Of a DNA stretch of 7,897 nt, positions 832 to 2,919 are shown piece after piece. The stretch is from Clostridiales bacterium (GTDB lineage: Bacteria > Bacillota > Clostridia > Christensenellales > Pumilibacteraceae), in NCBI GenBank assembly GCA_029069015.1, contig JAIEBL010000363.1, positions 1-7,897 on the forward strand, written 5' to 3'. How positions within the stretch are numbered: position 1 is the first letter of the stretch; each line of letters opens with the position of its first letter. Made by a program: the position numbers and the translations under genes. The notes below the pieces were generated by a model, which had not been told where the DNA came from, ran no database searches, and worked only from the letters and a program-made list of their open reading frames with translations.

Positions 832-1749
832 ATGGATAAAGAGATTGTTATAAATTACATAAGGCAAAAGCGAGGCGCGGAAATAGCGACGCTGCAAAGG
901 GAATACGGCATTACCTATCGGGAAGCCAAATCGATTGTAGACGAATTGGTGCATAAAGGGTGTCTGGCGTATGAAGCGGGCATCCACTACGTTTGGGTGG
1001 ATAAAGAGGACTCGGCGTCACTCGATAAACCGTGGAAAGTGGAGGGAAGAAGGCTTTATTTTTCCCCTAAGACGGAGAGTGCGTCCGATCAAAGGGAAGA
1101 AGCTGCGGCAAGTAACAATGCCGCGCGCGCAAAAAATGAGCGTATAGAAGAGATCCGTTACGATGCGCTATACCATTGTATTAAAAAAGGAACGGCTTCT
1201 CCGGCGCTATTGCAATGCGCTTTTTCAATCAATTTCGCGCAGGCGTGGCAACTCATAGAATGGATGCAATACAACGGGTATATCACTTCGCAGGAAAAAA
1301 GTGCGTGTTACCGCATCAACGTAACGGAAGAACAGTTCAACGAGATCATAAAAAGAATGGCGCAACCGTCTTCGAACATAATGACGGATTCGGAAAAATT
1401 GCTTGTCAGAGTCATAAGCGCGGGAAACGTTTCAAACGAAAATGCTGTAGCTACGTTTTTGGCTATCTTGGAACGGCGGCGAGACGTGACAAACGTCAAA
1501 GTGCCGTCGCACGCACTGTGGGCGGAGGAAGTTGAATTCAATAAGGCGGTCGTCAATCAAATCGTCGCTTTGATCCGTTCCGATTTTAACATGGTTCGGA
1601 AAACGGCAATCCAGAAAGCCGGCGTGCATTTTGCCACCGTAAAAAACGCCTGTGATTTGCGTATGGCGCAGGTCTACGAGCGCATCTTATATACCCTGAA
1701 AGGCATGAGTGATATTCAATACGATCAAATACGTGACTGCATCAAGTAA
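832..1749 (+). CDS. Two-winged-helix protein with an FtsK-gamma-like domain, upstream of the FtsZ-like gene
   Basis: This 305-aa protein has no family name I can give with certainty. Residues 3-58 look like a winged helix (helices around IVINYIRQK and YREAKSIVDELV, then a wing at about 45-56). After a polar, low-complexity linker (about 60-105), residues 108-165 closely resemble the FtsK gamma winged helix: an A-L-x-x-C-I-x-x-G-x-A-S-x-x-L-L-Q pattern, an aromatic/Ala recognition segment (NFAQAWQLIEWM), then G-Y-I. The C-terminal 180-305 is predicted mostly helical and is unrecognised. There is no ATPase motor, so the gamma-like domain is detached from FtsK. The start is ATG with GGAGG at 819-823 and an 8-nt spacer. 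Position between a coupling ATPase and an FtsZ-like GTPase suggests a DNA-binding adaptor, analogous in place to TubR of TubZRC, or a transfer/relaxosome accessory. DNA binding is inferred; the function is unknown. Confidence 0.72.
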   Translation: MDKEIVINYIRQKRGAEIATLQREYGITYREAKSIVDELVHKGCLAYEAGIHYVWVDKEDSASLDKPWKVEGRRLYFSPKTESASDQREEAAASNNAARAKNERIEEIRYDALYHCIKKGTASPALLQCAFSINFAQAWQLIEWMQYNGYITSQEKSACYRINVTEEQFNEIIKRMAQPSSNIMTDSEKLLVRVISAGNVSNENAVATFLAILERRRDVTNVKVPSHALWAEEVEFNKAVVNQIVALIRSDFNMVRKTAIQKAGVHFATVKNACDLRMAQVYERILYTLKGMSDIQYDQIRDCIK

Positions 1750-1764
1750 GTATAGCACGCACGC

Positions 1765-1793
1765 TTGCACGTTTCCTTTGCATGTGTTAAACT
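1765..1793 (+). promoter_or_regulatory. Weak candidate promoter and direct repeat before the FtsZ-like gene
   Basis: In the 83-nt gap between the winged-helix and FtsZ-like genes, TTGCAC (1765-1770) and TAAACT (1788-1793) are 17 nt apart, with only 3/6 and 4/6 consensus matches. The same stretch holds two copies of a TTGCAyGTkT repeat (1765-1774 and 1778-1787), 13 bp apart and differing at two positions, after a GCAC-rich run. It may be an operator or DNA-binding site for the upstream protein. It may also be chance. Confidence 0.28.
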
Positions 1794-1832
1794 ATTTATC
1801 GGATCAAAAAATAAGAAAGGAGTCTGTTCGCT

Positions 1833-2753
1833 ATGTATAAAATACCCAAAGTAAAGGTTTTCGGTGTAGGGGGCGCAGGCTGCAATTTTATCGAGAAAAT
1901 TATCGGAAAGCCCGTTGCGGGAGTGAAATATTTCGCGGTTGACGACGATTGCGGCAGATTGCAGATTTCGACTTGCGAAAATAAGATCCGGCTCATTGGC
2001 AGCGACCACCATGGGGCGGATTGTGCGTATGCGCAAAAGACGGTAGCGGCAAATGAAAGTCTGCTCAAAGAGGCGGTCCAAGGCGCGGATATGGTGATCC
2101 TGGTTGCGGGAATGGGCGGCGGTATCGGTTCGGTCGTCACGCCTGCTTTGGCCCAAATGGCTAAGAGCAGCGGCGCGCTTACGATTGCGGCGGTATGTAC
2201 GCCTTTTATGTTCGAGGGAGAAAAGCGGCTAGCAAATGCCGAGCGTGGACTGCAAGCCCTTAGAGAATGCGCCGACGCAGTTGTTGCTGTTCCGTGCGAA
2301 AATCCGAGAGAAAACGTGCCGCAAAATGTCCCCGTGACGGAAATGATAAAGCGCACGGATGAAACGATCGTGCGTATTACGCGTTTGCTTTTAGAGCCCG
2401 TACTTGTGCCCCAAGTTATCAATTTGGAGTATGAGGATGTCGCGATCTTTTTGCGCGGCGCAAAACGTGCTTTATTTGGTTTCGGCGTCGGAGAAGGGGA
2501 AAACAAAATCGACAAGGCGCTTCACAGTGCGTTAAACGGCATATCGGCGGCAATGCCGATTGCCGATGCAACGGGTGTTTTTCTATACGTCGAGGGTGGC
2601 GACGATCTTGTATTAAACGACATCAGTACGATTGCAACGTGTTTAAAGGATGTCGTCAACTCTTCCGCAAATATTCTTTTTGCGGTCAATATGGATAGCG
2701 GGCTTTCGGGCAAATTAGAAGTTTCCGTTCTTGCCGTGCAAAACGAGATATAA
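1833..2753 (+). CDS. Divergent FtsZ-family GTPase without C-terminal tail
   Basis: This 306-aa protein spans both FtsZ core domains. It has the N-terminal GVGGAGCN (11-18; FtsZ GVGGGGGN), the tubulin/FtsZ signature loop AGMGGGIGS (92-100; FtsZ AGMGGGTGTG), FEGEKR plus A-x-x-GL (127-140), and a T7-like loop NLEYEDV (197-203). The activation-domain strands end near residue 303. Changes from housekeeping FtsZ: signature-loop Thr to Ile and GTG to GSV, a degenerate T3 loop where GLGAGxNP is expected, and the first T7 acidic residue Glu instead of Asp (Asp202 kept). The disordered linker and conserved C-terminal peptide that bind FtsA/ZipA/SepF-type partners are absent. It is therefore unlikely to be the division FtsZ. 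The start ATG has AAAGGAG (1816-1822) with a 10-nt spacer. It lies 83 nt after the winged-helix gene and just before a terminator. A filament-forming segregation or transfer role is inferred; GTPase activity is plausible but may be altered. Confidence 0.85.
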   Translation: MYKIPKVKVFGVGGAGCNFIEKIIGKPVAGVKYFAVDDDCGRLQISTCENKIRLIGSDHHGADCAYAQKTVAANESLLKEAVQGADMVILVAGMGGGIGSVVTPALAQMAKSSGALTIAAVCTPFMFEGEKRLANAERGLQALRECADAVVAVPCENPRENVPQNVPVTEMIKRTDETIVRITRLLLEPVLVPQVINLEYEDVAIFLRGAKRALFGFGVGEGENKIDKALHSALNGISAAMPIADATGVFLYVEGGDDLVLNDISTIATCLKDVVNSSANILFAVNMDSGLSGKLEVSVLAVQNEI

Positions 2754-2801: not shown

Positions 2802-2831
2802 AAAAAGACTTGCATTATTGCAAGCCTTTTT
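2802..2831. terminator. Bidirectional intrinsic terminator between FtsZ-like gene and tRNA-Leu
   Basis: The stem is CTTGCA (2809-2814) with TGCAAG (2819-2824), loop TTAT, then one A/C mismatch, one G-C pair and five A-T pairs. The arms are flanked by AAAAA (2802-2806) and TTTTT (2827-2831), so a U-tract follows the hairpin on either strand. It can end the + strand element operon and, read from the other side, the tRNA-Leu transcript. Confidence 0.85.
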
Positions 2832-2835
2832 CATT

Positions 2836-2863
2836 TGGTGCGGATGAAGGGACTCGAACCCAC
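2836..2863 (-). other. Candidate attachment site (tRNA-Leu 3' end)
   Basis: Many integrative elements recombine within the T arm/3' end of a tRNA gene and rebuild it on integration. The conjugation-related genes lie exactly on the 3' side of this tRNA. The matching second copy of the repeat would lie to the left, outside the window, so this is only a candidate. Confidence 0.35.
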
Positions 2864-2919
2864 ACGTCTAAGACATCGGCTCCTAAGGCCGACGCGTCTG
2901 CCAATTTCGCCACATCCGC
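2836..2919 (-). tRNA. tRNA-Leu (anticodon UAG), CCA encoded
   Basis: Read on the - strand, acceptor GCGGATG pairs with CATCCGC and is followed by discriminator A and an encoded CCA (2836-2838). The D arm is GCG/CGC. The anticodon stem TCGGC/GCCGA encloses the 7-nt loop CTTAGGA with anticodon TAG (complement at 2883-2885), reading CUN Leu codons. The class II variable arm has the stem GTC-TTA-GAC. The T loop is TTCGAGT. The outer T stem is imperfect: three G-C pairs, then a U-U mismatch and a G-U wobble. The 3' end faces the putative mobile element. Confidence 0.95.

Follow-up and report, generated by a model that had tools for sequence, protein, structure and literature searches.

Organization of the locus

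The window, that is, the whole stretch of 7,897 nucleotides analyzed here, begins within a VirD4/TraG-type ORF, followed by ORFs for proteins of 305 and 306 aa, and the ORF scan places all three on one strand (Table 1). The original prediction had placed a two-winged-helix gene and then a tail-less FtsZ-family gene after VirD4, and this arrangement is confirmed by ORFs at exactly the positions of Table 1 and by Pfam matches. A run of 305 stop-free codons has a chance probability of about 3e-8 at the base composition of the window, and homologues were found for both the 305-aa and the 306-aa proteins.

Table 1 Position, strand and supporting method of the features in the window.
Feature	Position	Strand	Basis
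VirD4/TraG-type ATPase gene, 3' part (5' end lost at the contig end)	1..798	+	Pfam
305-aa winged-helix protein, two FtsK gamma domains and C-terminal helical bundle	832..1749	+	Pfam, model
First gamma-type winged helix, residues 3-57 of the 305-aa protein	838..1002	+	Model elements H3-13 to E52-55
Second gamma winged helix, about residues 108-171 of the 305-aa protein	1153..1344	+	PF09397
C-terminal helical bundle, residues 225-305 of the 305-aa protein	1504..1746	+	Model
FtsZ-family protein without tail, 306 aa	1833..2753	+	Pfam
Terminator-like hairpin, between the FtsZ-like gene and the convergent tRNA	2802..2831		Pattern scan, both strands; consensus match only
tRNA-Leu (TAG), 3' end facing the FtsZ-like gene	2836..2919	-	ARAGORN

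In the 700-2840 region, the gaps measure 33 bp between VirD4 and the gene of the 305-aa protein (hereafter the gamma gene), 83 bp between the gamma and FtsZ-like genes, and 82 bp. A pattern scan of both strands finds no terminator-like site between the gamma and FtsZ-like genes, so that, with a common strand and such short gaps, one operon is possible in the window. The GC3 values of the two genes are also nearly equal (0.531 for the FtsZ-like gene and 0.533 for the gamma gene). The genome is 84.8% complete and the region upstream of VirD4 lies off the contig. The ordinary ftsZ of this genome (423 aa) belongs to a different contig, where it follows ORFs identified by eye as ftsQ and ftsA. The tRNA-Leu and uracil-DNA-glycosylase genes are not adjacent in the relatives examined, which provide no empty-site comparison. 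In one genome (G049, locus L076, 7281-8196), pieces resembling by eye a broken serine recombinase directly adjoin tRNA-Leu (TAG) at its 3' end; this is the tRNA that the window also carries.

A winged-helix protein with two FtsK gamma domains

The two winged helices first noticed in the 305-aa protein are FtsK gamma domains, since two of its stretches match Pfam FtsK_gamma (whole-protein score 51.3 bits, cut-off 30.6). Taken alone, the second stretch (PF09397 at 1159-1308) reaches 31.7 bits, over the cut-off, and the first (847-966) reaches 25.7 bits, under it. In the structure model (pLDDT 71, pTM 0.35), two wHTH units are followed by a C-terminal helical bundle. In Foldseek, the model resembles the gamma domain of E. 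coli FtsK (2j5p) with a target TM of 0.79 and an E value of 0.023; no match is found at E 0.001 or better, and the likeness to FtsK gamma rests on the target TM. The model also resembles the centromere binder AspA (target TM 0.54-0.63).

The protein shares PF09397-type winged helices with FtsK and SpoIIIE but differs from them in having no FtsK_SpoIIIE motor, two gamma copies, and the helical bundle. The recognition segment of its gamma also differs from that of the FtsK of its own genome. TubR-type winged-helix proteins are about 100 aa long, and the expectation that the 305-aa protein would be unlike TubR holds for its size, its two FtsK_gamma domains, and its bundle.

The alignment of the 305-aa protein took in nine relatives. 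The helical bundle is conserved in two alignments (A4 and A6), even in a relative lacking the second gamma (locus L082), which lies directly after VirD4 and matches no Pfam family, yet aligns with the window protein at both ends. Among the gamma proteins beside VirD4, the C-terminal parts vary. Close full-length relatives are rare: a search of 396 genomes of the order at E 1e-32 finds them in 3, one of which is that of the window. In one of these three (G372, locus L081, 13069-17066), no VirD4 is present on the 20-kb contig, and the gamma gene lies directly downstream of an AAA-AAA-M41 protease gene. A class-wide search with the gamma profile gave mostly frames of FtsK length.

A VirD4 clade without membrane segments

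The VirD4 fragment of the window matches T4SS-DNA_transf (97.8 bits) and TraG-D_C (87.5 bits). It is 72-74% identical (72% over 268 aligned columns) to the VirD4 of locus L082, a 569-aa protein without membrane segments from another family of the order (genome G402). At E 1e-40, this clade occurs in 13 of the 74 genomes of the window's family, at 17 places including the window, and its proteins in that family are 53-67% identical to the L082 protein. Together with L082 they make the 18 clade loci considered below. The same search also yields 12 places with longer VirD4-type proteins that are separate from the clade (27-35% identity).

The maximal 19-residue hydropathy near the N-terminus is 0.77-0.96 in all five clade proteins tested (the N-terminus of the window protein is off the contig), compared to 2.46-2.93 in five of the six longer VirD4-type proteins used as control and 1.28 in the sixth. 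The clade is without membrane segments in these five relatives. The three full-length clade proteins scanned score 237-244 against NF045973, the CD1115 family, only just under its cut-off of 250; the window fragment, too short to judge, scores 136.6. Clade members share the T4SS-DNA_transf and TraG-D_C domains with CD1115-family VirD4/TraG coupling ATPases, but differ in the missing N-terminal membrane segments of the relatives tested, in their scores under the cut-off, and in their usual neighbors, p538 and ClpP. VirD4 matches 1778 plasmid records, all below 60% identity, the six matches listed being at 27-30%. A weak PADLOC match of the L082 protein to mad8 (24.7 bits) was taken to reflect the shared ATPase fold, and this identity was rejected.

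p538, ClpP and gamma genes accompany VirD4

A gene for the protein p538 lies directly upstream of VirD4 in 16 of the 18 clade loci, the two misses being L103 and the window, whose contig is cut at that point. p538 has no Pfam match and no match in 72,556 plasmid records, and a search at E 1e-5 did not find it in the genome of the window, which is 84.8% complete and has VirD4 truncated by the contig end; an empty result of this search is not evidence of absence. ClpP protease is detected by tblastn at 12 of the 18 loci; that of locus L108 matches Pfam CLP_protease with 201 bits. Directly downstream of VirD4 and on the same strand, nine of the 18 loci carry a gamma/winged-helix gene belonging to one BLAST cluster, and the other half have no gamma gene directly after VirD4. 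Three of these nine genes were scanned with Pfam: those of the window and of L103 exceed the FtsK_gamma cut-off, and that of L082 gives no family. An additional FtsK_gamma gene is found third after VirD4 in L113.

The FtsZ-like gene is present in only one of the 18 VirD4-clade loci, that of the window, and is absent from all nine other gamma/winged-helix loci, L081 included. This search covered 19 sequences, the 18 clade loci and L081, with the window as the only positive; adjacency was judged only from the VirD4 and gamma side and from two distant FtsZ-like relatives. The winged-helix/GTPase pair, which the original prediction would have conserved across elements, is therefore not conserved among these loci.

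A tail-less FtsZ with a remodelled nucleotide site

The 306-aa protein has an FtsZ fold and scores above the cut-offs of Pfam Tubulin/FtsZ (89.1 bits) and FtsZ_C (45.3 bits). It has no C-terminal tail, since only three residues follow the last strand, which ends at position 303. In FtsZ, the C-terminal linker and tail bind FtsA, ZipA and SepF. The protein also misses the cut-off of the FtsZ equivalog model TIGR00065 (295.2), with 195.9 bits, as do two relatives (P0011, 206; L023, 198.3). It differs from division FtsZ in its missing tail, in a T3 loop four residues shorter, in its place outside the division gene cluster, and in its score under the equivalog cut-off.

We compared the nine FtsZ-like rows of the tree described below with 27 canonical FtsZ sequences, which are part of the same 51 tree rows. 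In all nine rows, NT is replaced by DD in T2 (NTD to DDD), N by Cys or Ser in T6, and four residues are missing from T3. In eight of the nine, the T4 threonine is replaced by Ile or Met and the Asp of T7 by Glu, mostly in the form NLEYED. Five of the six conserved T1 positions and all four T5 positions are kept. The nucleotide site of this family is remodelled in a common way, which would fit a nucleotide-binding protein with a changed cycle and is not evidence for a dead enzyme. Indeed, a pseudo-GTPase-like decay of the nucleotide loops is not supported as a general trend: with loop limits set by the analyst, 18 of 41 loop positions are lost compared to 24 of 45 other positions (one-sided p 0.86), so that the loops show no excess of losses and the GTP site no sign of a general decay. 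The mean column identity of the family alignment is 79%.

The evidence leans against membership of the TubZ family, as judged from FtsZ models and a tree without TubZ: FtsZ_C is over cut-off, the FtsZ model gives 195.9 bits, and all 49 distinct sequences of solved structures matched at E 0.001 are named FtsZ. Neither TubZ, PhuZ nor CetZ is among the 50 rows listed by Foldseek and by VIA-align for the model of the protein, although such lists carry no weight as evidence of absence.

Relatives of the FtsZ-like protein

The close relatives (P0005, P0006 and P0008-P0013) are 309-311 aa long and 41-49% identical to the window protein, and come from collections without gene context. Our tree comprises 51 hand-picked rows, including 29 of 58 homologues from protein collections and no TubZ; P0014 (215 aa), P0015 (185 aa) and the fused P0007 were among the sequences left out. 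All nine FtsZ-like rows group together with support of 100/99. Their clade is separate from the FtsZ of the window's own family, and its closest neighbor is FtsZ from another family within the order (85/88). By its sequence, the GTPase belongs to a distinct FtsZ-derived family and is no recent duplicate of the host ftsZ, in agreement with the original prediction of a lineage of its own. P0007 (405 aa) fuses an FtsZ-like portion with the end of a DNA cytosine methylase, possibly as a result of misassembly.

Three of the 74 genomes of the window's family have a second FtsZ-type match: that of the window, G034, and G020. In G034, the related gene (L023, 8430-9356) is the sole occupant of a 1130-bp gap flanked by tRNA-Ser and tRNA-Gly; the corresponding gap of the congener G033 is 161 bp and empty. 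The long branch that attaches the G034 copy to the FtsZ-like clade may be false, and the G020 copy falls outside the clade. Genes read by eye as type I restriction-modification are found in L023 beyond the tRNA-Ser genes. In G020 (L024, 8152-11019), a 955-aa ORF combines TIR (5-123), FtsZ (160-456), FtsK alpha, FtsK motor and gamma (881-942) domains, a fusion observed in one of the 74 genomes.

The family is rare among the genomes searched. No match other than its own comes near the score of the window protein among the 74 family genomes, nor among 391 genomes with matches listed to E 1e-84; among 396 genomes with matches listed to E 1e-70, there is no other, all remaining matches being open frames of at least 374 aa, and in another family none of 265 genomes has a close copy to E 1e-88. 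These genome sets overlap, and distant tail-less copies of the G034 and G020 type are detectable only in the 74-genome search. Searches with the family alignment found nothing in the genome contigs searched, and the viral contigs searched gave no match. Close relatives were found neither on plasmids, where 115 records have FtsZ-type matches, all below 60% (best among the matches listed, 32%), nor in phages, with 23 such records, all below 60% (best among the matches listed, 34%). Three other candidates were discarded: L037 and L038, from a search of genome contigs with P0011, are respectively an apparent ordinary spirochaete ftsZ in a division cluster, as read by eye, and a 351-aa archaeal FtsZ-type ORF, and the phage record H21 (MT835896.1, L119, "Bacteriophage sp.") was identified by eye as a bacterial division cluster containing ftsA and ftsZ.

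Interpretation of the locus

We tentatively hypothesize, with a probability of about 0.4, that VirD4 and the gamma protein form a split FtsK-like DNA pump and that the FtsZ-like gene is a separate, mobile single gene whose product is predicted to modulate the division ring of the host. We infer the biochemistry of both parts from sequence and models. VirD4 without membrane segments would be a cytosolic motor; the gamma protein would bind a DNA motif via its winged helices, and its helical bundle would load or gate the motor, as gamma does within FtsK, but in trans. The FtsZ-like protein is predicted to bind nucleotide, given its FtsZ fold and retained phosphate loops, and may join or cap host FtsZ filaments; the partners of host FtsZ would have no tail by which to tether it, and division would be slowed or repositioned.

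The separation of the two parts is suggested by the gamma gene directly following VirD4 in half of the clade loci when the FtsZ-like gene accompanies it in one. The lone G034 gene, which fills a tRNA gap that is short and empty in G033, and the well-supported clade of nine rows, apart from the FtsZ of the host family and with common loop changes, point to an independent FtsZ. Nevertheless, several observations weigh against this explanation. The three genes of the window could form one operon, the place of L023 in the clade might be an artefact of its branch, and the nucleotide loops have no excess of lost positions, so that a general decay of the GTP site is not shown. As for the pump, p538 was not found in the incomplete genome of the window, where VirD4 is cut, half of the VirD4 loci have no gamma gene, the C-terminal parts of the gamma proteins differ, and L081 has its gamma gene without VirD4 on its contig.

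Second in our ranking, though unlikely, is that the three genes form one module, in which a tail-less FtsZ would position or scaffold the VirD4-gamma DNA pump as a new FtsZ-FtsK-type machine. The shared strand, the short gaps with no terminator-like site between the gamma and FtsZ-like genes, and the similar GC3 values are consistent with this, as is the union of FtsZ, FtsK and gamma domains with TIR in the 955-aa protein of G020. It is countered by the single VirD4 locus with an FtsZ-like gene and by the FtsZ part of the G020 fusion, which lies outside the clade of the window and occurs in one family genome. Because of this fusion in a related genome, a bolder version stays under consideration, in which a filament of tail-less FtsZ would serve as positioning scaffold for a VirD4 motor and twin-gamma reader, a union of cytoskeleton and DNA motor outside division; we give it little credence.

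Third, the FtsZ-like protein might be an immune decoy or sensor that mimics FtsZ to phage proteins attacking host division, which we consider improbable. Effectors of conflict systems include FtsK and, rarely, FtsZ/tubulin domains, and decoy roles have been suggested for those effector domains that are inactive enzymes (PMC7159879). The TIR-FtsZ-FtsK fusion of G020, the genes read as restriction-modification near the L023 copy, and the piece of DNA methylase in P0007 also speak for it. However, PADLOC gives no model match for the three window proteins or the lone L023 protein, and the nucleotide loops show no general decay. The likeness to these conflict systems lies in FtsZ- and FtsK-type domains outside division; they differ in being centered on vWA-MoxR and other NTP-dependent cores, and no vWA or MoxR domain appears in the Pfam scan of the nine window ORFs. 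The fusion also belongs to another genome than that of the window.

The original prediction saw in the locus a TubZRC-like, tubulin-type partition module stabilizing an integrative conjugative element, which we now regard as very unlikely; a plasmid-style segregation module is unlikely altogether. As in TubZRC (type III partition), where the winged-helix gene comes first and the GTPase gene second, a winged-helix gene precedes a tubulin-superfamily GTPase gene; a tRNA gene stands at the end, and the likeness of the gamma model to AspA also speaks for this explanation. However, the family and size of the winged-helix protein and the FtsZ type of the GTPase differ, the pair is not conserved, and no centromere is apparent: repeats of 10 bases or longer with copies within 400 bp, scanned over 700-2840, form families of two copies at most, and the gaps of 33 and 83 bp leave no room for an array (the region upstream of VirD4 being off the contig). 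The conjugative element is not supported either, given a VirD4 clade without membrane segments and just under the conjugation cut-off, a clade locus (L103) that adjoins dnaG and rpoD, and p538 unmatched in plasmid records. Among the neighbors scanned, a selection of loci, and with the upstream side of the window missing, no relaxase or VirB4 was recognized. Finally, changed nucleotide motifs and the missing tail might suggest a decaying duplicate without function, which is hardly credible in view of identical changes in up to nine of nine relatives, the high column identity of the family, and an intact ORF.

What was suspected to be a segregation module becomes two questions. One concerns the ClpP-p538-VirD4-gamma cluster, where FtsK-type DNA readers would partner in trans with a VirD4 ATPase that has no membrane segments; the other concerns a tail-less FtsZ family with a remodelled nucleotide site that is rare among the genomes searched. 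We found no account of the cluster or the family in the open-licence full-text literature, and either could provide FtsZ or VirD4 with a role outside division or conjugation.

The cluster of ClpP, p538, VirD4 without membrane segments and gamma is recurrent (L104-L118 and L082), with not every gene at each locus. Its accessory genes vary; some loci encode a protein with two AAA domains and an M41 peptidase, DnaJ-Sel1, or Hsp70-type proteins. In L103 (G010, 11474-15316), a 1280-aa protein combining TIR, NPHP3_N NTPase, TPR and an APH-type phosphotransferase is encoded two genes upstream of VirD4.
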